Assembly (NCBI RefSeq): GCF_002261185.1 | Contig: NZ_NEVQ01000008.1 | Location: 62,001-126,000 of the forward strand | From: Bordetella genomosp. 4 | Lineage (GTDB): Bacteria > Pseudomonadota > Gammaproteobacteria > Burkholderiales > Burkholderiaceae_B | Length of the DNA stretch: 64,000 bases | Direction of reading: 5' to 3' | Shown: positions 12,110 through 45,424 of the stretch, in pieces | How the letters are laid out: each line of letters starts with the position of its first letter | Position numbering within the stretch: position 1 is the stretch's first letter | The notes under the pieces: model-generated | What the model was told of the DNA's origin: nothing | Database searches by the model: none | Seen by the model: the letters and a program-made list of their open reading frames with translations, nothing else | Made by a program: the position numbers and the translations under genes

Positions 12110-12565
12110 ATGCGTACCATCGTCAGTGCTATGGATACTCTCGCTTCTCACGCATTTGAACAGCGCACTACGCTGCAGTCGTCGGATTTCGCCATGTTGG
12201 CCGATTTCCGATACGAATTGCGCCGTTTCGCGCTCTTCAGCGAGTCAGAGGCTCAGGCACACGGCCTGGCGCCTCAGCAGCATCAGGCGTTGCTGGCGAT
12301 CAAAGGCCTGGCGGTGGCTCCTACCGTGACCGAGCTCTCCCAGCGTCTCTGCGTCAAGTCCCACACCGCTGCTGAACTCGTCAACCGGCTGGCGCACATG
12401 GGAATGATCACACGCCAGACGGACCCCAGAGACGGACGCCGTGCGTTGCTACACCTGACTCCCTTGGCCGAGCGCACCTTGGAATCCCTATCAGCAGTGC
12501 ATCAAGAACAACTGCAGAACATTCGTCCCCTGCTATTGGGGTTGCTCGAGAAATTCAGTCAATAG
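12110..12565 (+). CDS. MarR-family transcriptional regulator
   Basis: A 151-residue winged-helix repressor-type protein. The core reads PTVTELSQRLCVKSHTAAEL, followed by MITRQTDPRDGRRALLHLTP, the recognition helix and beta-wing pattern of MarR. Such proteins usually sense small aromatic compounds or oxidants and repress a neighbouring gene. The start at 12110 has only a weak AGAG upstream; ATG 12131 (MDTLASHAF) is an alternative. It is divergent from the two-component operon. Confidence 0.85.
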   Translation: MRTIVSAMDTLASHAFEQRTTLQSSDFAMLADFRYELRRFALFSESEAQAHGLAPQQHQALLAIKGLAVAPTVTELSQRLCVKSHTAAELVNRLAHMGMITRQTDPRDGRRALLHLTPLAERTLESLSAVHQEQLQNIRPLLLGLLEKFSQ

Positions 12566-12597
12566 AAGCTTGCCGCAGTATTCATGTTTACCGAAGG

Positions 12598-13251
12598 TTA
12601 TTCCTGCGGGAAATTGCTGAATATCCGTGTGATTTGCTGATCGGCCGCGATACTGGCTGGCGTGACCAGCAACTGTTCTTGTATTCGTTGCCAGCATCCG
12701 GCCTGGTCAGTGGCCTGGCAGTCAGGGTGTCTTTCCCATCGTGCCAGAAACAATGTCCGGACTGCTGGATTATCTACGGCCAGCGTGCCGAAACGCTCTG
12801 TTTTGCCGAGCGTAATCCCCGCCGCCTTGAACGCATAGTAGGGCAACTCGCTGCAATAGATCGCGTCCGGTTCGAGGCGAAAGAAAATATCGTAAGGGCG
12901 GCCCGTATAACGAGATGCCTCGGCAAGCGCTGTCTGGATACTCTCAGGCGTAGCTGTGTTCAACCGGTAGACGGCATACTGACCCTGCTGTCCCCGTGCC
13001 AGGAATTTGGCTAGCGGCGTCTCGCTAACCGTGCGAGCCGCCTCGATGACCACGGGGCCGGATGGAGTCAGCCGAACAATGCCCATGTGGGTGTAGCGGC
13101 TTTTTGTGGCGATGCGGATCGCAGCGGACTGCGGCCCTGCGGAGTCCTGGAACACCAAGTCGCCGGTACGCCATTCGGTAAAGTCATGGGCGTACGCCGG
13201 CAGGGTGATCAATGCGAGCGACAGGATGACAGTAGTGACGCGGATAGGCAT
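12598..13251 (-). CDS. Exported YiiX-like permuted papain-fold (NlpC/P60-type) hydrolase
   Basis: A 217-residue protein with a signal peptide (MPIRVTTVILSLALITLPAY, cleavage likely after AHA or nearby). The catalytic pattern of the YiiX/YebB circularly permuted NlpC/P60 group is visible: His55 in SRYTHMGIV, followed by Glu69 in VVIEAA, and Cys133 in DAIYCSELPY. These enzymes are predicted amidases or thioesterases acting on peptide or lipid amide bonds in the envelope; the substrate is unknown. It converges on marR. No Shine-Dalgarno sequence stands out. Confidence 0.75.
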   Translation of the reverse strand: MPIRVTTVILSLALITLPAYAHDFTEWRTGDLVFQDSAGPQSAAIRIATKSRYTHMGIVRLTPSGPVVIEAARTVSETPLAKFLARGQQGQYAVYRLNTATPESIQTALAEASRYTGRPYDIFFRLEPDAIYCSELPYYAFKAAGITLGKTERFGTLAVDNPAVRTLFLARWERHPDCQATDQAGCWQRIQEQLLVTPASIAADQQITRIFSNFPQE

Positions 13252-13408
13252 AGGGGTTGAGGAACGAGATACGCGGACACCGCGTTGCTATCGAGATTGA
13301 CTTCCAGAGATTGTATTGCGCTAGCATGCTGAGCGCCGCTCGGCTCTCGTGCTTACAGTCGCGGACCGACCAATCGATGAAAACGGCCTTATTCGGAAGA
13401 CGAAAATC

Positions 13409-14479
13409 ATGGTGAAGATCGCTGACTTCGGCAGCTTTGAAACAGTGCCTCCTCTCGTGACGGCGCTAATCGAGAGTGACATTGCTGCGCTCGATGCGGC
13501 CTTGGCGAGCGGATTGGATATCGAAGCCGAGATCGAGCTGAGCGAGTACACACAAGAGATTCCGCTGGTGCTGGCGCTCGCGGTGCAGGCGAGTGCTTCT
13601 GTGCATTGGCTGGTCGAACACAGAGCCAATTTGAATCGAGCCGATGCGCCTGCTTTTCCGATCGCCGCTCGATACGCAAACCCCGACATGATGCGCTATC
13701 TCGTACGGCACGGCGCCGATGTCCATGCTCGAAAGAAAGTCGGTGGCGATGCCTATCAACAAGCGTTGTATGGCAAAAAGATAGCGCATCTCCCTGTTAT
13801 CGAGTCGCTGGGCCATAGCGTCGCAGAATATGGCGGGGAGGCGTTTCGTTCTGCTGTGTTTGATCGTGATGAGCGGGCAGTTGAGTTTTTCCTTGCGCAC
13901 GGTGTGGATGTCAATTTCAGGACACGGGATCAAGTGTTTTCCGATAGCGCGACACCATTGTTGGTTGCCGCCCGTAATCGCGACGCGAAAATGTGTCGCC
14001 TGCTGGTGGAGCACGGTGCGGACGCGCTGATTACGAATCGCGATGGCGAACGGCCTTACACCGTCGCCGTCGAGCAGGGCGATGACGAACTGGCAGCGTA
14101 TTTCAAGTCCCTGGAACCGACGGAATTGCACAGCGTGATCAACAAACTATACGAATTAAAGCCGTACAAGCTGCCGCAGGAATTGGTGGATTTCTTGCAA
14201 AGCGAACGACGGCGCATCGACTTGCCGGGCTGCGACGTCGGTTTCGTCGAGTTTTTGGGGCTGACGGACACGGTGCCGATTAAGGCCGGTCGCAAGAAGA
14301 TGCTGCGATTAAGTCGCGAATCGGGCGATTATTCGGACACTCTACTCGTATGGAATCCGAAATCCCAGCGCATCGGCTATTGGGATGTCGAGCACCAGGA
14401 ATATGGCGATATTGCTTCGTTCAAAGACTTTATGGATCGTCCTGCACAGTATATGAACAAGGTGGTCAATGGCGAGTAG
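13409..14479 (+). CDS. Ankyrin-repeat protein with a possible SUKH-like C-terminus
   Basis: A 356-residue cytoplasmic protein. Ankyrin repeats occupy about residues 10-235, with several clear units (MRYLVRHGADVHARKK, AVEFFLAHGVDVNFR, MCRLLVEHGADALITN). The C-terminal 110 residues (KLPQELVDFLQSERRRIDLP to IASFKDFMDRPA) resemble the SMI1/KNR4-type SUKH fold by pattern (a tyrosine/aspartate-rich sheet with YWDVEHQEYG), but this is weak. Ankyrin and SUKH domains are both common in immunity proteins of bacterial toxin systems; no toxin gene is adjacent. I chose ATG 13409 because the 20 upstream codons look non-coding. Confidence 0.65.
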   Translation: MVKIADFGSFETVPPLVTALIESDIAALDAALASGLDIEAEIELSEYTQEIPLVLALAVQASASVHWLVEHRANLNRADAPAFPIAARYANPDMMRYLVRHGADVHARKKVGGDAYQQALYGKKIAHLPVIESLGHSVAEYGGEAFRSAVFDRDERAVEFFLAHGVDVNFRTRDQVFSDSATPLLVAARNRDAKMCRLLVEHGADALITNRDGERPYTVAVEQGDDELAAYFKSLEPTELHSVINKLYELKPYKLPQELVDFLQSERRRIDLPGCDVGFVEFLGLTDTVPIKAGRKKMLRLSRESGDYSDTLLVWNPKSQRIGYWDVEHQEYGDIASFKDFMDRPAQYMNKVVNGE

Positions 14480-29921: not shown

Positions 29922-30066
29922 ATTTGCCCGGCTATTGTGTATGGCCGGGCAAATTGATATTGAACGCACGTCAAAAAGTTGTACAAAAAGTCGTATTTCG
30001 CGCATGCCAGCGCCTGCGCAACTGTTTGCCGTTTTTAAAACCACGGTAGGGCACCTCGGCCCTGCC
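29922..30066 (+). promoter_or_regulatory. rpsO: Structured rpsO 5' leader
   Basis: Two hairpins lie between the putative promoter and rpsO. The first, ATTTGCCCGGC with GCCGGGCAAAT (29922-29932 and 29944-29954), has an eleven-base perfect stem. The second, GGTAGGGC with GCCCTGCC (30045-30052 and 30059-30066), contains a G-U pair next to a G-C pair, the kind of element S15 recognises in known leader RNAs. It ends ten bases before the Shine-Dalgarno GAAGAGG. Autoregulation by S15 is inferred. Confidence 0.45.
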
Positions 30067-30088
30067 GCCAGTCCGAAGAGGTCATTCC

Positions 30089-30358
30089 ATGTCCGTAGCT
30101 GACATCAAAAAAGCCGACATCGTCGCTCAGTTTCAACGCGCCCAAGGCGATACCGGTTCCCCCGAAGTCCAAGTAGCTCTGCTGACCGCTCGTATCAACG
30201 AGTTGACCGGTCACTTCAAAGAACACATGAAGGACCACCATTCGCGCCGCGGTCTGCTGCGCATGGTCAGCCGTCGTCGCAAACTGCTCGACTACCTCAA
30301 GGGTCGCAATCCCGATTCGTACCGCGCACTGATCGAAAAACTCGGTCTGCGCAAGTGA
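30089..30358 (+). CDS. rpsO: 30S ribosomal protein S15
   Basis: Primary 16S rRNA-binding protein of the 30S subunit. The 89-residue protein has the usual length and signature: [40 protein letters not shown] and [27 protein letters not shown] precedes the ATG at seven bases. rpsO-pnp is the standard pair. Confidence 0.98.
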
Positions 30359-30386
30359 TCGACGGGGCAGGCTCCCCATGACACAA

Positions 30387-30427
30387 CCGTGGTCGGTGCG
30401 GCGTATGTCGCAGCGGCCACGGTTTTT
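30387..30427 (+). terminator. Hairpin with T-run between rpsO and pnp
   Basis: CCGTGGTCG pairs with CGGCCACGG (one G-U), extended by TGCG/CGCA inside, and is followed by TTTTT (30423-30427). It can act as a partial terminator after rpsO. In E. coli the pnp leader hairpin at this place is cut by RNase III in pnp autoregulation, so this could be the equivalent site (inference). Confidence 0.7.
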
Positions 30428-30448
30428 CATTTGTAAGGAATTCTCGTC

Positions 30449-32608
30449 ATGTTCAATAAAGTGACTAAATCGTTCCAATACGGCCAGCATACGGTCGTGC
30501 TGGAAACCGGCGAGATCGCCCGTCAGGCCTCCGGCGCTGTGCTGGTGTCGGTGGACGATACGGTTGTATTGGCCACCGTCGTGGCCGCCAAAAAGGCAAA
30601 ACCCGGTCAGACGTTCTTTCCGCTGACGGTCGACTACATCGAAAAAAGCTACGCTGCGGGCCGTATCCCCGGTGGCTTCTTCAAGCGCGAAGGCAAACCC
30701 TCCGAAAAGGAAACCCTGACCTCGCGCCTGATCGATCGCCCGTTGCGTCCCTTGTTCCCCGAAGGCTTCTACAACGAAGTCCAAGTGGTGCTGCACACCC
30801 TGTCGGTCAATCCCGACATCGACCCCGATATCCCGGCCATGATCGGCGCCTCCGCCGCCTTGGCGATCTCGGGCATTCCGTTCAATGGTCCGATCGGCGC
30901 TGCTCGCGTAGCCTACATTGATGACCAATACGTGCTGAACCCCACCGCTTCGCAGTTGAAGTCGTCCAAGATGGACCTGGTGGTCGCCGGTACCGAAAAT
31001 GCCGTGCTGATGGTCGAGTCCGAAGCACAGCAGCTGTCTGAAGAAGTCATGCTCGGTGGCGTGGTGTATGGCCACGAGCAAATGCAGGCTGCCATCAACG
31101 CCATCCACGAGTTGGTGCGCGAGGCCGGCAAGCCCGACTGGGAATGGCAAGCCGCTCCCAAAAACGAGGCCCTGATTGCTGCAGTGACTGCCGCTGCCCA
31201 AGACAGCCTGGTCGCTGCCTATCAGGTTCGCCAGAAACAAGCCCGCACGACGCAACTGCGTGACGTCTACGCCGACGTACATGCCAAGCTGGCCGAGCAG
31301 GCCGCTGCTGCTGGCCAGGACGCTCCCGACGCAGTCGAAGTCGACAACATTCTGTTCGATCTCGAGGCCCGCATCGTTCGCGGTCAGATCCTGAATGGCG
31401 AACCCCGCATCGACGGCCGCGACACCCGCACCGTGCGCCCCATCAGCGTGCGCCTGGGTGTGTTGCCCCGTGCACACGGCAGCGCCTTGTTCACCCGCGG
31501 TGAAACGCAGGCTCTGGTTGTCGCCACGCTGGGCACCAAGCAAGACGAGCAGATCATCGACGCGCTCATGGGCGAGTACCGTGACCGCTTCATGCTGCAC
31601 TACAACATGCCTCCGTTTGCGACCGGCGAAACCGGCCGTATCGGTGTGCCCAAGCGCCGCGAAATCGGCCATGGCCGCCTGGCCAAGCGTGCATTGGTGT
31701 CCTTGCTGCCTCCTCACGAAGATTTCCAATACACCATCCGCCTGGTGTCGGAAATCACCGAATCCAACGGCTCGTCGTCGATGGCATCGGTCTGCGGTGG
31801 CTCGTTGGCCATGATGGATGCGGGCGTGCCGCTGCAGGATCACGTGGCCGGTGTGGCCATGGGCTTGATCCTGGACGACGGCAAATTCGCCGTTCTGACC
31901 GACATCCTGGGTGACGAAGATCACCTGGGCGATATGGACTTCAAGGTAGCCGGTACGAAAAACGGTATTACCGCGCTGCAGATGGACATCAAGATCCAGG
32001 GCATCACCAAGGAAATCATGCAGGTCGCGCTGGCACAAGCCCGTGAAGGCCGCCTGCATATCCTGGGCAAGATGACCGAAGCCCTCGAGGGTTCGCGTGG
32101 TGAGCTGTCGGCCTTTGCGCCGCGCATGCTGACCATCAAGATCAACCCCGAGAAGATCCGTGACGTGATCGGCAAGGGCGGCGCTACCATCCGCTCCCTC
32201 ACCGAAGAAACCGGCACCCAGATCGACATCTCTGATGACGGCACGATCGTGATCTCCAGCGTGGACGAGGCTCAGGCCAAAGAAGCCCAGCGCCGTATCG
32301 TCGAGCTGACCGCGGATGTCGAAGTCGGCCAGGTTTACGACGGTTCGGTCCTGCGCCTGCTGGATTTCGGCGCCATCGTGCAAGTGCTGCCTGGCCGTGA
32401 CGGCTTGCTGCACATCTCGGAAATCGCCAACTACCGCATCGCCAACATCAACGATGTGCTCAAGGTCGGCCAACAGGTCCGCGTCAAGGTCATCGAGGCC
32501 GATGACAAGGGCCGTCTGCGTCTGTCCATCAAAGCCATCGGCGGGATCGAGCAACAGCAGCAACCCGGTGCTGAAGCCGCCCCTCAATCGGCGCCGCAAG
32601 CTGAATAA
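30449..32608 (+). CDS. pnp: Polyribonucleotide nucleotidyltransferase (PNPase)
   Basis: Trimeric 3'-5' phosphorolytic RNase of the degradosome. The 719-residue protein has two RNase PH domains (first half from [20 protein letters not shown]; second from about residue 320, [19 protein letters not shown], with [13 protein letters not shown]). A KH domain follows ([20 protein letters not shown], about residue 570) and then an S1 domain ([20 protein letters not shown]). Length is normal. The tail is Gln/Ala-rich. GGAATTC with AAGGAA before the ATG supplies the Shine-Dalgarno sequence. Confidence 0.98.
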
Positions 32609-32629
32609 GCTTTGCGTTTCTTGAGCAAA

Positions 32630-32660
32630 AACAGCACCGAAAGGTGCTGTTTTTGTTTTG
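32630..32660 (+). terminator. Rho-independent terminator of pnp
   Basis: AACAGCACC, a GAAA loop and GGTGCTGTT form a nine-base stem, followed by a T-rich run. It lies 21 bases after the pnp stop. Confidence 0.92.
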
Positions 32661-32677
32661 ATCTGCGGTAAATTCCT

Positions 32678-32715
32678 GGACGCAAGGACGCAAGGACGCA
32701 AGGACGCAAGGACGC
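32678..32715. repeat. Octamer tandem repeat (GGACGCAA, 4.75 copies)
   Basis: Four exact GGACGCAA units and a partial fifth lie between the pnp terminator and the next gene. Octamer tracts of this sort can change copy number by slipped-strand mispairing. It sits 66 bases upstream of the lipoprotein start. Confidence 0.9.
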
Positions 32716-35785: not shown

Positions 35786-37666
35786 GTGGATATTCCTAGC
35801 GTCCTTCAGTCTCGCCCCATCATTGCCCACACGGCAGTCAACGGCCTGACATTCCGGCAAATGGCAGGATACGAGGGGTTGTCGCAACTGTTCGAGTTCG
35901 AAGTCGAGCTGCTGGCGGACAATTTCAACCTGGATTTGAAACAACTGCTGGGCAAGCCCTTGACCCTGGAATTAGCGACCTCATCCGCGAAGCGTTATCT
36001 CGGCGGGCACGTGGTGCGTTGCGTCATGGTCGGGCGCGAAAACAGCGTCTCGCGTAATTACATATATAAAGCCACGGTGAAACCGTGGCTGTGGTATCTG
36101 ACGCAGACCTCGGATAACAAGATTTTCCAGCAGAAAAACGTCCCCGATATCATCAAAGAAGTGCTCGGGGAATACGGATATCCGTTCGAAATGAAACTCA
36201 CGGGCAGCTATCGCTCGTGGGAATACTGCGTTCAATATCAGGAAACGGATTTTGCCTTCATCAGCCGGCTGATGGAGCACGAAGGGATTTACTACTACTT
36301 CAAGCATGATAAAGACCAGCACACCCTGGTCATGACTGACGATATTGCCTCGCATAGCCCCGTGCCTGGCTACGAGACGATTCCGTATTACGGCCCTGAC
36401 CGGGTCGCGACGCCCCAGGAAGAGTGCATCTCGATGTGGGAAGTCTCGGCCCAGGTGACACCCGATGGCTATGCCACGGTGGACTACGACTTTACAAAGC
36501 CGGGGGCGAGCCTGGACGCGATGTCCAAGCGCAAGGGCGGCTCAGAGCCGGGCAACCTCGAAATGTTCGAATGGCAGGGCGGTTTCCAAGAGGCTCAGCA
36601 TGGCGAGCAATACGCTCGTATTCGTCTGGAGGAATTGCAAAGTATTCAGGAACAAAACCTGGGGTTGAGCAACGCTCGAGGCCTGGCGCCGGGGCATTTG
36701 TTTACCTTGCGCAATCACCCACGCAAAGCGGAAAACCGCGAATATCTGGTGGTGATGGTGAACTACCGGATGAGCGTAGGCGGCTACTCCAGTGGCAGCG
36801 GCACCGAGGAGTTCTACGAGGAGTCATTCTCGGCACTGCCCTCGAACGTGCAATATCGCGCGCCGCGCACGACCCCGATTCCGCGCACGCACGGCCCGCA
36901 GACGGCGCGCGTGGTCGGACCGGCGGGCAAGGAAATCTGGACCGACAAATACGGCCGGATCAAAATCCAGTTCCACTGGGATCGCTACGGTCAGAAAAAC
37001 GAAAGCAGTTCGTGCTGGGTACGGGTATCTAGCCCATGGGCCGGTGGTGGATTTGGCGGCCTGCAACTGCCGCGGGTAAATGACGAAGTGGTTGTTGATT
37101 TCATCGGCGGCTGCCCCGATCGGCCGATTGTCTTGGGGCGCGTTTATAACGCCAATAACATGCCGCCGGTGGAATTGCCCGGAAATGCGAACCAAAGCGG
37201 ATTCCGCAGCCAGTCGGTCTATGGCGATCCGACGATGTGCAACAAGATGATCTTCGATGACACGCTGGGGGCGGAGTTGGTGCATCAGCGGGCGCAGAAG
37301 GATCATTGTCATGAAGTGGTGAACGATCACAATCACACCGTCGGATGTAATTACACCGTAGACGTGTGCGGACACTACAGCATCACGGCTGGCTCATTGG
37401 GGGTATTGATCAAAGGCACGACCGATCTGACGCACAAAGCGCAGACGACGGTCAACATGAAAGCCTATAACCGCACTATCGAAGGGCCGGTCATTACCAA
37501 GACGACGGGCGACGTGGGCGCCTCTACAGAAGGAGTGCTGACAACCAAGCAGGTCGGTGCGCAATCCGTGACGGAAGAAGGCGACGTGACGCACAGCCTG
37601 ACAGGCAATTATGGTTCGACCCATTTTGGCGATTTCAAATTGGTCATCCACGGCAATGTCGGTTGA
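35786..37666 (+). CDS. Type VI secretion tip protein VgrG
   Basis: Spike protein on which Hcp tubes of the T6SS are tipped. The 626-residue product has the gp27-like part (SRPIIAHTAVNGLTFRQMAG, FEFEVELLADNFNLDLKQLL, DFAFISRLMEHEGIYYYFKH) and then the gp5-like OB/needle part (KIQFHWDRYGQKNESSSCWV, VRVSSPWAGGGFGGLQLPRV, DEVVVDFIGGCPDRPIVLGR). It ends in a beta-rich needle with no long extension carrying an effector, so a cargo likely binds separately. I chose GTG 35786, with GGAGAA upstream, over ATG 35732. No T6SS core gene is present nearby. Confidence 0.95.
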   Translation: MDIPSVLQSRPIIAHTAVNGLTFRQMAGYEGLSQLFEFEVELLADNFNLDLKQLLGKPLTLELATSSAKRYLGGHVVRCVMVGRENSVSRNYIYKATVKPWLWYLTQTSDNKIFQQKNVPDIIKEVLGEYGYPFEMKLTGSYRSWEYCVQYQETDFAFISRLMEHEGIYYYFKHDKDQHTLVMTDDIASHSPVPGYETIPYYGPDRVATPQEECISMWEVSAQVTPDGYATVDYDFTKPGASLDAMSKRKGGSEPGNLEMFEWQGGFQEAQHGEQYARIRLEELQSIQEQNLGLSNARGLAPGHLFTLRNHPRKAENREYLVVMVNYRMSVGGYSSGSGTEEFYEESFSALPSNVQYRAPRTTPIPRTHGPQTARVVGPAGKEIWTDKYGRIKIQFHWDRYGQKNESSSCWVRVSSPWAGGGFGGLQLPRVNDEVVVDFIGGCPDRPIVLGRVYNANNMPPVELPGNANQSGFRSQSVYGDPTMCNKMIFDDTLGAELVHQRAQKDHCHEVVNDHNHTVGCNYTVDVCGHYSITAGSLGVLIKGTTDLTHKAQTTVNMKAYNRTIEGPVITKTTGDVGASTEGVLTTKQVGAQSVTEEGDVTHSLTGNYGSTHFGDFKLVIHGNVG

Positions 37667-37729
37667 CGAAGCCGTGCTCATGGCAATCGGGATACCCGGT
37701 TTCTCCATTTAACTCTACAGGTGGCTCGT

Positions 37730-38503
37730 ATGAGTAAATCGGATCTGGAAAAGCTTACCGATGAGTTGCGCATTAGCCAGGGGGCCGAGGCGCCGAGAAC
37801 GCCGACGCTTCAGGAGGTGTCCGATCTCGCTTCGAACCACGGTGCGCCGTTGTCGCCGCAGGAGAGCAAAGCAGCCGAGAATCTGATCAGCACGTTCGCA
37901 AGCAGTAACGGCATTCCCTGGCTGGGGACGAGTTCCATGGCGGCTCCGGTTACTCCACCGGTTGCCGAACAAGCACTTGCGGCAAGTGTCAATGCAGCGG
38001 CAGGCGGCACGTTGATAGCAGCGGGGCTCGAATTCAAACAGAAGCTGACCGCGACGGTTCATGATGAGGTTGTCCTGACTTTCAAAGACTCCTATATCAA
38101 GAACACCTTGGGCGAGACCGTATACCACCACGAGGGGCCGGTAAAGATCGACGCAACCGACGTGCGTTTGAAAGCATCGAAAATCAATATCAATGCCTGG
38201 ATAGAGAAGAATACGGTAGAAGCCAGCAAGGAGTCATACCGCTATGCCACCAATATCAGTGTGGGCTCGCTCTCAGGCTTGCTGACGGCCACATCGAACA
38301 ACTCTGTAACTGGCATTGCCGGGGACTTCTCAGTATTCAATATGAGCCTGGGGGCAATCCGGCTGGGTACGGCCGCCGCTATGAGCCATTACGGTGATTC
38401 TCGAAATGGCAAAAAATTTGTCGCGCTCAAGAGCGCTACTTCCAAGTCGGACAGGGCAGCGAATCTCATTGCTACAGCCTTCACGATGCTCTTTATTATC
38501 TAG
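37730..38503 (+). CDS. VgrG-linked protein, first of three related proteins
   Basis: A 257-residue protein of unknown family. Residues 1-100 are helical and Ala-rich; the second half is beta-rich (TATVHDEVVLTFKDSYIKNT, VKIDATDVRLKASKININAW). It ends in a hydrophobic stretch (IATAFTMLFII). The segment VHDEVVLTFKDS aligns by eye with VHGDVKYVFNNT in the next gene and VQGIVIETNLSN in the third. AGGTGG precedes ATG 37730, nine bases downstream of a GTG. Cargo, adaptor or effector carried by VgrG are the options; no catalytic motif is seen. Confidence 0.65.
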   Translation: MSKSDLEKLTDELRISQGAEAPRTPTLQEVSDLASNHGAPLSPQESKAAENLISTFASSNGIPWLGTSSMAAPVTPPVAEQALAASVNAAAGGTLIAAGLEFKQKLTATVHDEVVLTFKDSYIKNTLGETVYHHEGPVKIDATDVRLKASKININAWIEKNTVEASKESYRYATNISVGSLSGLLTATSNNSVTGIAGDFSVFNMSLGAIRLGTAAAMSHYGDSRNGKKFVALKSATSKSDRAANLIATAFTMLFII

Positions 38504-38514
38504 TAGGCGGATTT

Positions 38515-39534
38515 ATGTCTCCTCCGACAGTGCTTCCCGGTTCGGATGCGGCCAAGGCGGTCGCCAAGGTGGGTCAATATGTTGCGGACCAAGGCGCTGG
38601 CTTGCAGTTGCCGGTGCTGGAGCAGTATGTCAAAGACGTCATTGTCGAGTATGGCGGTGATCCAGTAACGGCTGCGGCATCGGCGCGTACAGTCACTGTC
38701 ATGGCGGAGCGTGATCCCGCCAATACTCAAGGTATCGCCGAGCATATCGTTGCTAAAGCGGTATCGGATCCCAATACGATCAGTGATCGTATTCGCGAGA
38801 ATGTGCAGCGTGGTGTGGCCGAGCGCGGTGGACTGAACAGCCTGACCAAGGACGAACAAAAAGCCTTGGCTTACGACGAGGCATCAGGCGCTCTGCGTAG
38901 CGCGGGCATCACGGATACCCAGTCGCATGCCGACCTGAAAACGCGTATCAACGACTATATCGACCAAGGCGCGAGTCCTGAGGTGGCTGCCGCTGCTGCT
39001 GCCGCTCCTGCATTGGCTGCAGGCGGACCTGTAGCGGACTCTCTATCGATCTTCGGCTATCTGGTTATGTTGGTGCATGGCGATGTCAAGTATGTCTTCA
39101 ATAATACGGAGACCCTCAATGTCTCGGGTAGTGCTATCCACTCTCATATGAAGAGCGTCAAATACGACATGTCGGCATATAACTTCGATATCGTGTGCGA
39201 CACGATACAAACATCATCGACGAATGAGTTTTTGAATGGACGATTTCATATCGGCCTGGGCGTTGGCAATTATCCTGGCACGTACAAAGCACTCATGACG
39301 TCTGCCTTTAGTTTTTATGGCGGAGTAGGCAAGCTCGGGATGCAGTGGCGACCATTTACGCTGTACAGCCTAAACGGAACGAAGAAGCGCTTGTACTTGG
39401 CAGGCATAGACAATGACATGGTCATGTACAACCGAGCTATCGAAGAGGACAGGGACCATCGAGAAACATCAGTCCTCACCGTTGAGCAGGCCAAACAGGC
39501 TATCCAGCGTACCATCACAAAGTGGTTCAATTAA
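38515..39534 (+). CDS. VgrG-linked protein, second of three related proteins
   Basis: A 339-residue protein. Its N-terminus (SPPTVLPGSDAAKAVAKVGQ) and the motif DQGASPEVAAAAAAAPA recur in the next gene as FNVLPGSDAANAVQAV and KQGASPEMAAESAAT, so the two are paralogues. An Ala-rich helical half (residues 1-175) is followed by a beta-rich half (SIFGYLVMLVHGDVKYVFNN). Starts 11 bases after the previous gene; its stop overlaps the next start (TAATG). Function unknown. Confidence 0.7.
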   Translation: MSPPTVLPGSDAAKAVAKVGQYVADQGAGLQLPVLEQYVKDVIVEYGGDPVTAAASARTVTVMAERDPANTQGIAEHIVAKAVSDPNTISDRIRENVQRGVAERGGLNSLTKDEQKALAYDEASGALRSAGITDTQSHADLKTRINDYIDQGASPEVAAAAAAAPALAAGGPVADSLSIFGYLVMLVHGDVKYVFNNTETLNVSGSAIHSHMKSVKYDMSAYNFDIVCDTIQTSSTNEFLNGRFHIGLGVGNYPGTYKALMTSAFSFYGGVGKLGMQWRPFTLYSLNGTKKRLYLAGIDNDMVMYNRAIEEDRDHRETSVLTVEQAKQAIQRTITKWFN

Positions 39535-40598
39535 TGAACTTGCCATTCAACGTTCTACCCGGATCTGATGCTGCGAACGCTGTCCAGGCAGTGCGGGACC
39601 TGGATGGATTGACCCTGGCTAATTTCGAAGAACAAATCGGGCCGATCTTGAAGCAGTATCACGTGGATCCGGTCACGGCGTCAGCATTGAATGAGACCGC
39701 CCGTCAGGTCACGACGAATAACCCGAATATCGAGTTGAAGCCGCTGACCGAAAGTCTGGTGGGTACAGCCATCGCTGACCCTCGCGTGGCGGGCAACAAT
39801 GCTCGTCAAGCAGTCCGTGCCGGCGGTGATTTGAGCCTTAGTGATCGGGAGAAGCTGGCCGTCGAAGCTGCTGGCATCGAGGCAGAGAAAGCCGGTGGGA
39901 GTAAAACTCTGGCGGAAAGCAAAGCCAAAGAGGCTCTTAAACAAGGCGCTAGCCCTGAAATGGCTGCGGAATCTGCGGCCACCGCTGCGGTTGCTAGTGC
40001 CGTAGCAAGCAATCCGGAATTCGCGTCAGGCTTGGAAGTCTTTGGCTATTTCAAGGCGATGGTGCAGGGGATAGTGATAGAAACGAACCTCAGCAACGAA
40101 CGGCATGAAGTCAAAAACAAGACAGACTGGATCATCGGCGCGGCTTTTATTCAGAATACGGCTGTCGACTTGACGGTGGATTGTCACTATTACCATGCAC
40201 ACGCGCAGCGCGATGTCAGCCGTCGTACCTATGCGCTGAATACATATTTGGCCGGCTATTACATGACTTCGCCGGATCCATGGACGTTCACCGGCATGTC
40301 GGTGGGAGCCTCGGTTGCGACCGGCTCTGTCTATAAAGACATTATTTCCCCCGGTGTTATCAAAGTCACCAAGGCAAAGAAAGACTTCTATTATGCCGGG
40401 ATGACAGTAGAGGGCGTGGACAAGACTATGTCGAGTGCGCACCGGATGGCCGATAAAGGTTTGATCAAAATAAAGTTGAAGAGCACCCTGACATTCCTGG
40501 GAGGAAATCCAAAATTCAGCAGCATTCCTCCGATGCTTGGCAGCCTCTCCTCCAAGCTCAAGAGCAAGATTTCTCGTAGCGGGAACTCTGGCCCATGA
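39534..40598 (+). CDS. VgrG-linked protein, third of three related proteins
   Basis: A 354-residue paralogue of the previous gene, with the same layout: N-terminal VLPGSDAANAV, a helical Ala/Glu-rich part (residues 30-165), then a beta-rich part starting LEVFGYFKAMVQGIVIETN. The basic Ser-rich C-terminus (KLKSKISRSGNSGP) is unlike the second paralogue. I chose ATG 39534, inside a TAATG overlap, not GTG 39522. It overlaps the next gene by four bases (ATGA), indicating coupled translation. No toxin motif seen. Confidence 0.7.
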   Translation: MNLPFNVLPGSDAANAVQAVRDLDGLTLANFEEQIGPILKQYHVDPVTASALNETARQVTTNNPNIELKPLTESLVGTAIADPRVAGNNARQAVRAGGDLSLSDREKLAVEAAGIEAEKAGGSKTLAESKAKEALKQGASPEMAAESAATAAVASAVASNPEFASGLEVFGYFKAMVQGIVIETNLSNERHEVKNKTDWIIGAAFIQNTAVDLTVDCHYYHAHAQRDVSRRTYALNTYLAGYYMTSPDPWTFTGMSVGASVATGSVYKDIISPGVIKVTKAKKDFYYAGMTVEGVDKTMSSAHRMADKGLIKIKLKSTLTFLGGNPKFSSIPPMLGSLSSKLKSKISRSGNSGP

Positions 40599-43228
40599 AA
40601 ATTATCAAGCCGGTGCGACTGACTGTGATGCCCCGCCCGTATCGGTGGCGGGGCCAGGTGGGCTTGTCCGTGGCGGTTGCTGCTCTGGTACACCACGGAA
40701 GCGAAGGGGCCCGCATTCAGGCGGAGCATACCTTAGTCAATGATGTGTTGCCTGAACTGGATGCGGATGAGGTGCTGGATTTTGTCATGCCGAAACCTCA
40801 TCCAGAGTACATGGTGAGCGGCAGCGCCTATACGGTGCATCAGGAGGACAAGACGCGATGCGTTGTCAGTGTGCGTGTCGGCGACAAGCGCAAGGATGGT
40901 CTGGTCTTCGGTAATCGTTACTGGATGGGAGACCGGATCACCGAGCCTCAGCCGTTTGAGGCCATGCCTTTGACCTGGAGCAATTCATTCGGCGGCAGTA
41001 CGTTTCCCGAAAACCCTTTGGGCACGGGGCTTGATGCGGTTGAGGTGAATGGCATTGAGGCAATTCGTCTACCCAACCTGGAGTCTCCCGTTGAGCGTAT
41101 TCACACGCGCGGCCAGCGCGTCGAACCCTATAACTTCGGACAGATTCGGGTTGACTGGCCGCAGCGGTTAGAGAAATTCGGTTCGTGCGATGAAAAATGG
41201 GTGAATACCATTGGCGCGGGCTTTTTTGACGATCTGCAATTGTCAGCTTTCAATGCTGCGCCCGATGACCAGGTCTGGCAGGATCGCGATGCGCTGTTCA
41301 TGGACGAGGACTTCGAGTTCTGGAATATGCATCCAGAATTGCATTGCTGGTCGGGTCGTCTGCTGGACGTTCGGGCCCGTTGTTTCATCAAACGTCAGGA
41401 CGCCGATGATCTGGACGAGGTACCGTTGAGGCCCACGACCGTTTGGTTTTTGCCGAATCGGACCAGCTATGTACTGATTTTTCATGGGCAGATTCCTATC
41501 GCCGATGATGATGCGATGGATGTGCAAGCCATCATGGCGGCCATGGAGCATCAAGCTCAGGAACGCTCCATGGATCACTATCGGCATATTTATGCGCGGC
41601 GTACGAATTTCGACACCGCGGCGCTCGATACGCTACGCGACGCTGACTTGATGCCTGCAGATATTCTGGCTCCGTGGTTGGAAGACGTCCCGCTGGGGAA
41701 GCAGGCGCTGGTGTCGAAATTGACCGATCGTTTGCGCCGAGACACGGGAGCCTACCCATCCGGAGGGTTCATCGGGCCGGTCAAGCCGGTGACGCTGGCA
41801 GATCTGACCGAGATGGCGGAGCAGTATCAGGTCTCACATGACGAGATCATGGCGAGTCACCAAAAAGAAAGACAAAAGGCATTTGAGGAGATGCATCGCA
41901 GCGTGGAAAGCAGCGGCTCCAAAGAGGATGCTGCGTTGCTGAGTGCCATTGCTGAGGCCACGTCACCCAAAGATGGCGGGATCACTCTGCCCCAGGTCGG
42001 CCCGCCCGATTTGGACGCGGTATTTCAGACCGTCCGTTCATCGGATTCGCGCCAATCGCTGCGCAAGGCATTTTCAGGCAAAGAGGCCGCTGGCAGTACG
42101 CCCCGCGAAGTTTATGACCATAGCAAGCGAGCCCTGAAGCAGATCTATCTCTATTCAGTACATTATCAGCAAGGGGTGGCTCGTGTGGGGCCGCATCGCG
42201 CACAGCAAATTCGTGAACAGGTAGAGAAAAAGTACCGGCTGAGCAAGAATCTGTCCGACATGGATTTAACGGGAGCAGATCTGTCGGGTATGAATCTGTC
42301 AGGAGCAGATTTTTCGCGTACCTGGTTGGAGAAAGTCGACTTCACGAATACCGATCTGACTGGCGCCAAGTTTGAAGAAACCGTACTGGCAAGAGGCTCC
42401 TTTACTGATTGCCGTCTGGATGGCGCGGTCTTTACGCGGGCCAATATTAGCGACGCCGTTTTTACAAATACCTCGTTTGGCAGTGCGACGCTGGACAAGG
42501 TAATCTGTGAGCTGCCGGTGCGGTTCGATCACTGCACTTTCGAGTCTGGAAAAATGACGCGATTCCGTATGCAACGCAGCGAGTTCAGGGATTGCGTGAT
42601 GCGTGATATGGAGCTGAGCGACGTTTCGTTTGAGCACGCGCTTTTTTCCAACGTTGATATCGCTGATACGCATTTCGACAAGATCAGCTTCGAGCAATCG
42701 AGTATTGATGATCTACGTATCGAGGCGAGCGTGATAAACGGTTGCGTTATGCTTGAGAGTACCTTTCATCGTTGGCATATGCAGGGTTCGCTGATGAGCA
42801 AATGTGCCTTCATGACTGATATCAAGTTCAGCGAATGCAGACTGGGAGGGAATCATTTTCAGCAAACTACATTCCGCGCCGTGGATTTTTCACGCGTGAG
42901 CTTTCAGGGAGCGACGTTGGACCAATGCGATTTTTCGCAGGCCAATCTCTATGGATGCGATATGCGGAAAATTCAGACACCGCAGTCTGTGTTTGTACGG
43001 ACGTGCTTCGATATGGCTGATCTGTCGGGCAGCAACCTGATGCAGGGAAATTTCCAGAAAGCGACCTTTGTGGGGGCCAATCTCTCGGGCTGCAATCTGT
43101 TCCGTGCTGACATGTCTGAGACGCTGCTGGATGCGTCTACCAGGATTGAGAATCCCTATGTGCGACGTACGCGCTTGGCTCCCTATCGCCAGGGGCAGCA
43201 CGCACGCCTTGGGGGGGGAGCGGTATGA
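40595..43228 (+). CDS. DUF2169 domain fused to pentapeptide repeats
   Basis: An 877-residue protein. The N-terminal DUF2169 domain (about residues 1-330) begins IKPVRLTVMPRPYRWRGQVG and contains LTWSNSFGGSTFPENPLGTG. After a helical middle part (about 330-530) comes a pentapeptide-repeat beta-helix to the end, with A(D/N)LSG-type units (DLTGADLSGMNLSGADFSRT, then ANLSGCNLFRADMSETLLDA). DUF2169 proteins occur in T6SS vgrG clusters and are thought to assist loading of PAAR or effector cargo; the exact role is not settled. The start overlaps the stop of the third paralogue. Confidence 0.88.
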   Translation: MKIIKPVRLTVMPRPYRWRGQVGLSVAVAALVHHGSEGARIQAEHTLVNDVLPELDADEVLDFVMPKPHPEYMVSGSAYTVHQEDKTRCVVSVRVGDKRKDGLVFGNRYWMGDRITEPQPFEAMPLTWSNSFGGSTFPENPLGTGLDAVEVNGIEAIRLPNLESPVERIHTRGQRVEPYNFGQIRVDWPQRLEKFGSCDEKWVNTIGAGFFDDLQLSAFNAAPDDQVWQDRDALFMDEDFEFWNMHPELHCWSGRLLDVRARCFIKRQDADDLDEVPLRPTTVWFLPNRTSYVLIFHGQIPIADDDAMDVQAIMAAMEHQAQERSMDHYRHIYARRTNFDTAALDTLRDADLMPADILAPWLEDVPLGKQALVSKLTDRLRRDTGAYPSGGFIGPVKPVTLADLTEMAEQYQVSHDEIMASHQKERQKAFEEMHRSVESSGSKEDAALLSAIAEATSPKDGGITLPQVGPPDLDAVFQTVRSSDSRQSLRKAFSGKEAAGSTPREVYDHSKRALKQIYLYSVHYQQGVARVGPHRAQQIREQVEKKYRLSKNLSDMDLTGADLSGMNLSGADFSRTWLEKVDFTNTDLTGAKFEETVLARGSFTDCRLDGAVFTRANISDAVFTNTSFGSATLDKVICELPVRFDHCTFESGKMTRFRMQRSEFRDCVMRDMELSDVSFEHALFSNVDIADTHFDKISFEQSSIDDLRIEASVINGCVMLESTFHRWHMQGSLMSKCAFMTDIKFSECRLGGNHFQQTTFRAVDFSRVSFQGATLDQCDFSQANLYGCDMRKIQTPQSVFVRTCFDMADLSGSNLMQGNFQKATFVGANLSGCNLFRADMSETLLDASTRIENPYVRRTRLAPYRQGQHARLGGGAV

Positions 43229-44268
43229 GCAAAGCGCACATTCTTGCACACGCCCATACGTTGGAAAAAATGGCGAACCTCGATGTTCGCAATGAAGTAT
43301 TCCAAGGGGATGCGTTGACAGGCATGGTATTCGATCAAGTCGATTTTTCGGGTACCCGGTTTCTGAATTGCATCATGCACGAGTGCGTGTTTATTGATTG
43401 TTTGTTCTCAGGAACACTGTTTCACGGGTCCGATCTGGCACATAGCCTGTTTTCATCGTGCACGATGAAAAGCTCGATGTTCGACGGATGTAATTTGTCT
43501 GAGACGCAGTTCGACGACTGTGGCTTGCAAAATGCTACTGTTCGCCATTGCGAACTCGAAAAAGTGGCATTCTCTCACTGTGATGCAACGCAGGCCGTTC
43601 TGCGCGATTTGATCCTACGTGATGCCGATGTGCTTGATTCGTGTCTGACCGAGACAGATTTTACGGGCACGGATCTATCCAAATGCCTGTTTCATGAGCT
43701 TGATTTACGCAGCACTGTTTTCACCCGGGCGGTGATGAAGGACATGGGGATGTCGGGCTGCAATTTGGCAGGCCAGAATCTCTCTGGTCAAGACCTGTCT
43801 GGCACGCAATTGAACGAAGCGATACTGACGAACGTGAATCTGGCAGATTGCCGATTAGTGATGTGCAACTTCAGTGATGCCGAAATCACGGATGCGAGCT
43901 TTGCTCAGGCAGATCTGCGCAATAGCCTGTTTATTAACGCCACCATGGAGAACGTGGTCTTTATTGGCGCCACGATGAACCAGAGCATATGGAATGGCGC
44001 GTTGGTTCAGCGAGCGGATTTTGATGGCGCAGATCTCGGCATGAGTGTGTTCAACAGAACGTCTTTTGAACATTGCCAGTTTCGCGACAGCGACATGCAG
44101 TATGCCGATTTTTCGTATTCCGGTTTGAAATCGTGCGGCTTTGATGGCGTCTTGATGAACAATACCCGGTTTCATAGGGCATTGGTCGATTCGGACGATA
44201 TCAAACGACGTCTCGGCGCCGTAGAGCGTGATGACGAGTTGTTCGAAGCCGAACTGTGGAGTGCTTGA
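43225..44268 (+). CDS. Pentapeptide-repeat protein
   Basis: A 347-residue protein made almost wholly of pentapeptide repeats (DFSGTRFLNC, NLSETQFDDC, DLSKCLFHEL, NLSGQDLSGTQLNEA), predicted as a long right-handed beta-helix. Cysteine is unusually frequent at the unit ends. It overlaps the DUF2169 gene by four bases and probably functions with it, perhaps as a scaffold in loading the spike. No signal peptide. Confidence 0.85.
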   Translation: MSKAHILAHAHTLEKMANLDVRNEVFQGDALTGMVFDQVDFSGTRFLNCIMHECVFIDCLFSGTLFHGSDLAHSLFSSCTMKSSMFDGCNLSETQFDDCGLQNATVRHCELEKVAFSHCDATQAVLRDLILRDADVLDSCLTETDFTGTDLSKCLFHELDLRSTVFTRAVMKDMGMSGCNLAGQNLSGQDLSGTQLNEAILTNVNLADCRLVMCNFSDAEITDASFAQADLRNSLFINATMENVVFIGATMNQSIWNGALVQRADFDGADLGMSVFNRTSFEHCQFRDSDMQYADFSYSGLKSCGFDGVLMNNTRFHRALVDSDDIKRRLGAVERDDELFEAELWSA

Positions 44269-44285
44269 TCCTTCAGGAGAAAACT

Positions 44286-44654
44286 ATGCCTTTTTGGGGA
44301 TGTATGGGTAGTGGCCGCAGTATCGGGCTGGGACCTTATCTTACCGGCGTTTCGAAGAATGACATGCTTAGCTGCATGAAATTGCCGACCACCAACATCT
44401 TTATTCAGAAGAAACCGGCACACAACATTTTTTCGGTGGCGCCATTGACGATAGACTTGCCTTCGGGGGTTCTGGGGGTGGCGACCGGGACGCTGTTTAT
44501 GTTAGGCGCCACTATTGCGTTGTTTTCATTCACGGTGATTGCATGCGGTGGATTCGTGATTCGCTGGCTGTGCCTGGCGCTTCAGAATTTCTGGAATACA
44601 TTAGGCATGTATCTGAAGATGGACCAGAAAAAAGTGCTGGTTCTTGCTGCTTGA
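44286..44654 (+). CDS. Small membrane protein of the vgrG island
   Basis: A 122-residue protein (MPFWGCMGSGRSIGLGPYLT). The middle (about residues 60-95) is strongly hydrophobic, probably one or two membrane helices (VATGTLFMLGATIALFSFTV). AGGAG precedes ATG 44286, which decides this start over ATG 44256. Its small N-terminus is Gly/Cys-rich, but I see no PAAR motif. It could be a membrane-acting effector or its partner; no function is assigned. Confidence 0.6.
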   Translation: MPFWGCMGSGRSIGLGPYLTGVSKNDMLSCMKLPTTNIFIQKKPAHNIFSVAPLTIDLPSGVLGVATGTLFMLGATIALFSFTVIACGGFVIRWLCLALQNFWNTLGMYLKMDQKKVLVLAA

Positions 44655-44693
44655 TGCCGATCGTTCTCTGACGGTGGCGCACGGATATTTACG

Positions 44694-45215
44694 ATGGCCC
44701 TCTATCGTCTGGCGACAGTCTTTGGCTATGTGCTATTGATCGGCGCAGTAGCTTTTTTCATCGGTTACTTTGCGCTGATGGTACTAGTCACCGGTTTTTT
44801 TGGTAATGAATCGGTTTTGAAGTGGGCAATGGGGGCCTTTTTTCTCGGTATTTTGTTGTTCCAAGCTCGTGCCTTAGTGGTTGATTTTTTGGCTGAACGG
44901 GTTGTTAAACACGGAGTACGTACAACCGGCCGGGTGGTTGCCGTCGAGCATAGCGGCAAGCAAGAGGTCGGCGACAGAGTGTGGGCAGACTGGTATCAAG
45001 TTATTGTCCAAATGGCTCCGCTGCCGGGTTTGACCGGCGAGCGCCAAGCTCATATAGAACAACTCTTCATGAAGGGTGCGACGGCTTGGCTGAAGCAGGG
45101 TGCAACTGTACCTATCAAATATGCGCCCGATTTGAGATTGGCGATCATCGATCATGAGCAGGCGTATCCGCGTCTGCACGCTGGTTCACAGTTTGCCTGG
45201 CGTAGGCTTCGATGA
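44694..45215 (+). CDS. Membrane protein, possible DUF3592-like fold
   Basis: A 173-residue protein with two hydrophobic helices near the N-terminus (YVLLIGAVAFFIGYFALMVL and WAMGAFFLGILLFQARALVV) followed by a cytosolic or periplasmic beta-rich domain with GVRTTGRVVAVEHSGKQEVG and VPIKYAPDLRLAII, a pattern reminiscent of DUF3592 proteins. As the last gene of the vgrG operon it is in the usual place of an immunity protein, but that is position only. Confidence 0.6.
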   Translation: MALYRLATVFGYVLLIGAVAFFIGYFALMVLVTGFFGNESVLKWAMGAFFLGILLFQARALVVDFLAERVVKHGVRTTGRVVAVEHSGKQEVGDRVWADWYQVIVQMAPLPGLTGERQAHIEQLFMKGATAWLKQGATVPIKYAPDLRLAIIDHEQAYPRLHAGSQFAWRRLR

Positions 45216-45424
45216 CGAGCTTCGGCGCGATCTAATTATTTATCAGGCTGGGTACCTATTTCGTTCCGACGACAGTAGGGAGGGCTTCGCTTGCCAACCG
45301 CAGGTCTTGACGTCCTCCAACGCTCCTGGTGCGTGCTCATCGCGCTTTACACCCCATCGCATAGACGCGGCTTGACCTGCACAGCCGTTGATTGCCCGCC
45401 CCGTTTCAGGGTGGGCGCACTTCT

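Follow-up and report, generated by a model that had tools for sequence, protein, structure and literature searches.

A Probable Exchangeable Spike-Tip Cassette With Three Paralogous Proteins in a vgrG Operon of the Bordetella petrii Group

Introduction

In the type VI secretion system (T6SS), proteins containing a DUF2169 domain act as chaperones that bring DUF4150/PIPY tip proteins onto VgrG (PMC11883445). Sets of spike-assembly genes of this kind, named Tvp, received their names only in 2025-2026; the set defined in Serratia marcescens comprises TvpAB, TvpB, TvpC and Paar1, accompanied by the immunity protein Vai1, which is predicted to lie in the inner membrane, and according to the accessible text of that study no separate effector was found (PMC13373197). 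The VgrG proteins of such class III systems usually have 700-800 residues and a long beta-prism, which is a tendency and not a strict criterion (PMC13373197). In Vibrio cholerae, recombination exchanges T6SS effector-immunity modules, vgrG being one of the places where the breakpoints fall, and orphan immunity genes occur (PMC5361080). Here we describe an operon headed by vgrG that fills positions 35786-45215 of a stretch of 64,000 nucleotides from Bordetella genomosp. 4 (contig NZ_NEVQ01000008.1, positions 62,001 to 126,000; this whole stretch is called the window), and compare it with its counterparts in a sample of nine genomes from the window's genus, which we label the Bordetella petrii group. 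The window's own genome is referred to as G000.

We read the operon as an exchangeable cassette of spike tip, effector and immunity functions in which three mutually related proteins, U1, U2 and U3, form the payload, and we put the probability of this reading at about 0.6. The operon resembles the described Tvp sets in its chaperone genes, differs from them in its gene content, and contains a block that has been exchanged between species with one breakpoint inside vgrG.

Results

Eight open reading frames on the forward strand fill the operon, with starts chosen to agree with those of the relatives. They encode VgrG, U1, U2, U3, a DUF2169-pentapeptide fusion of the TvpAB type, a stand-alone pentapeptide-repeat protein of the TvpB type, a PAAR-like protein and a small membrane protein, P8. 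U2 and U3 overlap in a TAATG (39534), and both the U3/TvpAB (40595) and the TvpAB/TvpB junction (43225) are ATGA overlaps; gaps of 63 bases (vgrG to U1), 11 bases (U1 to U2), 17 bases (TvpB to PAAR-like) and 39 bases (PAAR-like to P8) separate the other genes. An earlier note, made from the letters of the window alone, had described eight coupled genes in one direction, and this layout was verified. The same order of all eight genes recurs in 9/9 genomes, always located beside ilvA and in genomes that all possess a T6SS core locus.

The first gene, vgrG (35786..37666, +), encodes 626 residues from a GTG at 35786; a start at an ATG upstream (35732) would lengthen it by 18 residues, for which the relatives have no counterpart. 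The protein matches TIGR03361 with an E-value of 1.4e-180 (601.3 bits, cut-off 186.35) as well as PF05954, PF04717 and PF22178. VgrG of this type is present in 9/9 genomes and has 626-629 residues in all nine, compared to 790 and 789-811 residues, respectively, in two other kinds of vgrG operon of the genus described below. The TvpAB-type gene (40595..43228, +, 877 residues) fuses a DUF2169 domain (PF09937, E 4.7e-60) to pentapeptide repeats (PF00805, E 4e-36), and by analogy its product is a probable spike-tip chaperone. Both identities, VgrG and the DUF2169-pentapeptide fusion, had been assigned correctly in the earlier note. The TvpB-type gene (43225..44268, +, 347 residues; PF13599, E 4.3e-41; PF00805, E 5.7e-36) was found in 9/9 genomes.

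The seventh gene (44286..44654, +, 122 residues) had been listed together with P8 as one of two small membrane proteins. For the seventh gene, the reading as nothing more than a small membrane protein was rejected on a match to PF13665 (Toxin PAAR-like) and on the alignment of its profile to a DUF4150-type protein. The match to PF13665 is weak in 9/9 members (best E 2.1e-6), and the window's protein reaches an E-value of 6e-5 at 23.6 bits, below the cut-off of 31. With hhalign, the profile aligned at E 4.6e-6 to the canonical DUF4150-type protein found in G000 and in G081, and to the other 19 profiles compared at E 0.029 or worse. The PIPY motif (P[IV]P[YF]) was found in 0/9 proteins of the window type and is present in the canonical G000 protein. 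This weak but consistent match suggests that the seventh gene encodes a divergent PAAR-like spike-tip protein related to DUF4150. The profile has matches in 48/268 genomes of the family; because the matches outside the genus begin at position 25 or later, the first ~24 residues are apparently specific to the genus. The PAAR-like proteins of G156 and G171 (L032, L033) are 54-56% identical to that of the window, compared to 71-93% elsewhere, and have an altered C-terminus.

The class III Tvp system (VgrG1, TvpAB, TvpB, TvpC, Paar1 and Vai1), in the accessible description (PMC13373197), shares with the present operon the grouping of genes for VgrG, TvpAB, TvpB and, as far as the weak match tells, a small PAAR-like protein of a single domain, and also a linked gene for a small membrane protein. 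The chaperone logic is very probably the same. In contrast to that system, the TvpC gene lies here in the T6SS core locus and not in the operon, VgrG is short, the PIPY motif is absent and U1-U3 are added. Since TvpAB and TvpB are present and the PAAR-like protein matches weakly, while an in-operon TvpC and a long VgrG are lacking, we regard the operon as a variant and not as a plain class III member. Similarly, DUF2169 synteny type C, as outlined in the accessible part of its source (DUF2169-pentapeptide, DUF3540, PIPY; PMC11883445), has a DUF2169-pentapeptide protein beside vgrG and a DUF4150-like gene; here the DUF3540 gene within the operon and the PIPY motif are missing and U1-U3 are extra. 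The earlier suggestion of an effector, adaptor or spike assembly not yet described therefore holds for U1-U3, and not for four of the eight genes, which are of the Tvp kind described in these two studies.

As the earlier note had stated, no T6SS core gene lies at the locus; such genes are located elsewhere in the genome. VipB (TssC) was detected in 9/9 genomes, and the core locus of the window's genome includes TssA, TssB, TssF, TssG, TssK, TssL, TssM, TagF and clpV. An apparent loss of clpV in this genome proved to be an artefact of a stretch boundary, as the match covers residues 1-879 of 899, contains no stops and breaks off where the stretch ends. The core locus also contains a DUF3540 (TvpC) gene between tssF and tssG (L040, G000:C9, 4891-5568). 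DUF3540 adjoins tssF in the core loci of 9/9 genomes; the G141 contig breaks off before tssG. Of 14 DUF3540 hits, none is located in an operon of the window type or in the sister operons introduced below. Each genome has one to three VgrG matches, and in G015 (a draft of 100% completeness) the window-type vgrG is the only one, which makes the label "orphan" that the note had given to this gene misleading. In B. petrii a split T6SSa has been reported at Bpet0519-0524 and Bpet4101-4118, in a paper that never uses the term vgrG (PMC5045587); these two loci probably correspond to the present operon and to the core locus.

Two further kinds of vgrG operon were found in the genus. One is a canonical class III Tvp operon in G000 (L043, G000:C16, 3612-10815, minus strand) with a vgrG of 790 residues followed by genes for a DUF2169-pentapeptide protein, a pentapeptide protein, DUF3540 and DUF4150, and a close relative of it is present in G081 (L086). 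In addition, six genomes have a sister vgrG locus (L109-L114), about 56-60% identical to the window's VgrG. In 5/6 of these genomes the sister operon consists of vgrG (789-811 residues), a gene of 134-135 residues, tvpAB, tvpB, an extended PAAR gene and a gene of 200-202 residues, without U genes; in G141 it is cut by the contig end. TvpAB and TvpB of the G123 sister operon were confirmed by a family scan. Scans were made at L112 13102-14599 and L109 14105-14707. In the single PAAR (PIPY) protein scanned (G053), the extension matches PF14410, a nuclease domain of the GH-E type (E 1.1e-23); the last gene belongs to SUFU (PF05076) in 2/2 cases scanned (G123 and G053). We take SUFU to be a family of toxin immunity proteins. 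The nuclease-extended PAAR protein and the SUFU-family gene are therefore likely to be an effector-immunity pair, as far as family membership tells.

U1 (37730..38503, +) has 257 residues, with a core region common to U2 and U3 and a hydrophobic C-terminus; U2 (38515..39534, +) has 339 residues, and U3 (39534..40598, +, 354 residues) is a paralogue of U2 along most of its length. Plain BLAST detects only the relationship between U2 and U3, which hhalign recovers at E 1.5e-29 over 280 columns. Profile comparison links U1 to U2 (E 1.1e-9) and to U3 (E 2.7e-9) as well, in agreement with the earlier view that the three proteins are related. A tree of 27 U rows separated them into three clades, each genome contributing a single copy to each clade, with support of 90/95 for U3 and at least 99/98 for the other two. 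U1, U2 and U3 are, judging from these alignments, mutual paralogues. Among 60 profile comparisons that involved U1-U3 (100 in total), the best match of the U1 core region outside the U proteins was the C-terminus of VgrG, with an E-value of 0.0045 equalled in 0/150 column shuffles; because 60 comparisons were made, after which it is not significant, this match remains only a lead.

Searches of U1-U3 against Pfam, NCBIfam and PHROGs gave no credible match to an effector, adaptor or any other family, the lowest E-value being 4.3e-4 (U2 to NF003323, 19.7 bits, cut-off 271); for the window's U1 nothing appeared in Pfam or NCBIfam up to an E-value of 1. The adaptor families DUF4123 and DUF1795 were not among the Pfam and NCBIfam matches, and U2 and U1 had no credible match in PDB sequences (lowest E 0.16). 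AlphaFold2 (AF2) predicts an all-alpha N-terminal domain of U2 (residues 1-170) with helices 14-19 residues long; its predicted local distance difference test scores range from 69 to 94 per 10-residue block, and from 23 to 37 beyond residue 170. This modelled domain is the sole structural feature that prediction supports; the periodicity of hydrophobic residues in the U proteins gave a weak beta signal only. In the literature on Bordetella T6SS, DUF2169, DUF3540, vgrG modules and orphan immunity, which can be searched by text and not by sequence, nothing on U1-U3 was found among the matches listed.

The distribution of the U proteins follows the genus. U1 was found in 9/9 of its genomes, and U3 in 9/200 genomes of the family, every one in the window's genus. 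U2 was found in 10/268 family genomes, the nine of the genus and one chance match. This match (G154, E 1.7e-4) was rejected, since by eye it is a His-rich protein of a metal-binding type. At the level of the order, U3 occurred in 2/399 genomes, both from the genus, and at the level of the phylum U1 occurred in 2/398, namely the window's own and one doubtful case (G247, E 7.8e-4, 83 columns of a 1143-residue frame). U2 had no match in 72,556 plasmid records and 50,697 phage records, and 19 pattern hits in viral contigs yielded none that was confirmed. A contig scan with the U3 alignment returned six loci, all from Bordetella (B. petrii, genomosp. 2, genomosp. 7 and unnamed species), and the same scan with a single U3 sequence returned none. 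In these searches of family, order and phylum genomes, plasmids and phages, no relative of U1-U3 appeared outside the genus.

P8 (44694..45215, +, 173 residues) has two hydrophobic N-terminal segments and a C-terminal part that is soluble. At least two separate hydrophobic stretches near the N-terminus are present in 7/9 members, and one stretch in G123 and G081. Family searches with ten proteins gave no match of weight, the lowest E-value being 0.0017 in one of them. P8 was found in 9/9 genomes, and exactly one extra copy exists, in G103 (L039, 15665-16180), directly 3' of the resident gene. Its identity is 63% to the G053 type and 21% to the adjoining P8, and by analogy it looks like a leftover immunity gene of a foreign type, in 1/9 genomes. 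Because the sister operon has a likely immunity gene at the same place behind its PAAR protein, P8 is a candidate immunity protein; the PAAR-like protein in front of P8, unlike its sister-operon counterpart, has no toxin domain.

The genes of the operon differ strongly in conservation. Mean pairwise identity among the nine genomes was 98% for TssC, 93% for TssF, 85% for VgrG, 77% for core TvpC and 68% for the PAAR-like protein, and 53% for TvpAB, 48% for TvpB, 46% for U3, 43% for U2, 37% for U1 and 29% for P8, which thus diverges fastest of the operon genes. Within VgrG, identity per 40-column block was 83-98% to about column 520 and 53-61% beyond; the last ~100 residues, the spike tip, start at about base 37355. 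The trees of U1, U2 and TvpAB+TvpB agreed in 6/6 splits, that of U3 in 5, of P8 in 4 and of the PAAR-like protein in 1. No split was shared between the U1-U3 trees and the core tree, several splits of which are weak. We compared two fixed trees, a core tree and a cassette tree, each built from part of the same data. The core tree was rejected by U1, U2, U3, TvpAB, TvpB, the PAAR-like protein, P8 and whole VgrG; the cassette tree was rejected by 4/4 left-flank genes, core TvpC and 4/5 core proteins, TssB being neutral. Site likelihoods switched from one tree to the other at VgrG alignment column 525.

The exchange is clearest for G103, G081 and G123. Identity between G103 and G123 is 97% for VgrG 1-520 and 100% (rounded) for TssC, and 53% for the VgrG tip, 26-49% for U1-U3, TvpAB, TvpB and P8, and 78% for the PAAR-like protein. 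Quartets were built from these three genomes and a fourth, with six choices of the fourth. All eight cassette units (VgrG tip, U1, U2, U3, TvpAB, TvpB, PAAR-like and P8) grouped G103 with G081 in 6/6 quartets, with margins that were small in some (0.2-24.9 log units for the PAAR-like protein, 0.3-7.4 for the VgrG tip). G103 was grouped with G123 in 6/6 quartets by VgrG 1-520, core TvpC, TssA, TssF, ImpE and the PIN-like gene, and also by TssC (4/6), TssG (4/5, one quartet being unavailable), TssK (4/4, two being unavailable) and ilvA (5/6). To the right of P8, the first gene, encoding a VTT-domain membrane protein, fits the core tree in the eight genomes that possess it (cassette tree, approximately unbiased test, p 0.0038), and the tree of the second is undecided; the window's own right flank had no match to these two genes of the relatives. 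At least one exchange has moved the block that runs from the final ~100 residues of VgrG through P8, with a breakpoint inside vgrG, and this result is robust for G103/G081 versus G123.

The guanine-cytosine (GC) content per kb was 50-57% in the operon, compared to about 58-62% to its left and 55-60% near its right end. In the other genomes, the operon genes mostly lie under the GC mean of their own 20-kb stretch; P8 of G015 and that of G081 are among the exceptions. The GC content is therefore lower than in the flanks, only moderately so and not "much lower" as the earlier note had it; of the transfer that the note took from it, the exchange of an internal block stands and the recent arrival of the operon does not, the site beside ilvA being the same in 9/9 genomes.

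Discussion

We propose that VgrG serves as the spike and the PAAR-like protein as its point. TvpAB and TvpB would wrap and hold the PAAR-like tip before firing and then pass it to VgrG, and TvpC (DUF3540), absent from the operon, would act in trans from the T6SS core locus; these roles follow those in the described systems. Three paralogues with but a single immunity-like gene suggest that U1, U2 and U3 act together, possibly joined in a three-part assembly that is carried on the VgrG tip and might be a tip extension, a toxin or both. P8 would be the membrane protein that guards the producer. Homologous recombination would carry the segment that begins with the VgrG tip and closes with P8 from species to species, one of its ends lying within the conserved part of vgrG. 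A more specific version, in which U1-U3 form an asymmetric heterotrimer with one copy of each, lengthen the threefold VgrG prism and, when fired, become a membrane-active weapon of three parts blocked by P8, appears doubtful to us. Tripartite pore-forming toxins of the Hbl, Nhe and Ahl type likewise consist of three paralogous proteins from one operon and have very long helices. The likeness is one of logic only, three paralogues of one operon that perhaps act jointly on a membrane; unlike in these toxins, the modelled U2 helices are not very long, and no family match connects the two.

The exchange resembles that of the V. cholerae modules, as far as the accessible account goes (PMC5361080), in the block with a breakpoint in vgrG and in the immunity-like leftover downstream of a resident gene. 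In contrast to those modules, the block here includes the VgrG tip, U1-U3, the PAAR-like tip and both chaperones, and has crossed species, and its toxin and immunity functions are putative. Compared to the Tvp sets described so far, this variant splits TvpC, kept in the core locus, from a swappable remainder, has a tip without the motif after which its family is named, and brings in three proteins that match no library searched. It illustrates how a T6SS can replace its spike end and the loading helpers at once, with the remaining machinery left as it is. As a weapon, U1-U3 would represent a new type of payload for the T6SS; as structural proteins, they would be a new part of the spike.

Several observations weigh against the cassette with U1-U3 as its payload. 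No catalytic motif was recognized in U1-U3 and no effector family was matched in the libraries scanned; AF2 leaves the C-terminal half of U2 without a model and models U1 poorly. The ratio of nonsynonymous to synonymous substitution rates (dN/dS) of U1-U3 was 0.10-0.26 where computable, with several dS values saturated, and by this crude measure the three genes are under purifying selection without a sign of positive selection. A group of Tvp genes that includes a vgrG could serve for assembly and nothing more. As to the exchange, the left-flank 888-residue gene grouped G103 with G123 in just 4/6 quartets, and the lipoprotein gene in 1/6, with 4/6 weakly favoring another grouping. Because raw identities do not make G000 and G015 sisters, the wider conflict with these two genomes may be an artefact of long branches or composition. 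Linkage alone can explain like trees of adjoining genes, and only nine genomes stand behind the analysis.

The most serious competitor, which we nevertheless hold to be unlikely, is that U1-U3 are purely structural or assembly proteins, for instance proteins that stand in for TvpC or fill the cavity of the baseplate, with the toxic load elsewhere (at the VgrG tip or in Hcp-borne effectors) and P8 as an accessory or as immunity against the VgrG tip. U1-U3 sit in a Tvp operon without TvpC, and their presence in every genome of the sample is what a structural part would show. The Serratia VgrG1 pathway offers a precedent: the accessible text proposes VgrG1 itself as effector, no separate one having been found, and Vai1, to which P8 would then be comparable, as immunity against it (PMC13373197). 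A replacement for TvpC is unnecessary, however, because a DUF3540 protein is available from the core locus in 9/9 genomes. The resemblance of the U1 core to the VgrG C-terminus would also fit a structural role, but its score is one of 60 comparisons and loses significance accordingly; moreover, U1-U3 (37-46% mean identity) diverge far faster than VgrG (85%) and core TvpC (77%).

A slightly less probable alternative is that one U protein is an ordinary cargo effector of a family not yet described with P8 as its immunity protein, and that the other two serve as adaptors or in loading, without a three-part assembly. Sets of effector, adaptor and immunity genes are common next to vgrG, the operon has just one candidate immunity gene, and U1 has diverged most among the three (37% mean identity). 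All three U proteins are paralogous, however, with one copy each and matching trees, which fits subunits of one assembly better, and neither DUF4123 nor DUF1795 appeared among the matches. We consider it very improbable that the operon is a recent foreign island that brought its low GC content from outside the genus by transfer as a whole, with cargo lacking a local T6SS role. The difference in GC from the left flank would fit such an origin, but no relatives of U1-U3 were found outside the genus and the left flank is conserved; recent transfer of the whole island was rejected on the site shared by 9/9 genomes and on the quartets of VgrG 1-520, which groups like the core genes.

Neighboring Genes and Sequence Features

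The left neighbors of the operon have the same arrangement in 9/9 genomes: a protein of 888 residues, a lipoprotein-like protein of 241 residues, ilvA and a PIN-like protein. The 888-residue frame (window positions 30035-32701), which is conserved at the site in 9/9 genomes, had no Pfam match at an E-value of 0.001.

In a promoter scan of the operon 6 sites were found, compared to 7.8 expected by chance. Terminator-like sites numbered 20, compared to 9.8 expected, on both strands and mostly within genes; the one richest in G-C pairs is located downstream of P8 at 45393-45417. Elsewhere in the window, at 12110-14479, a gene for a MarR-type regulator, a gene on the opposite strand for a permuted papain-like amidase of the C92 type and an ankyrin-repeat gene adjoin each other.

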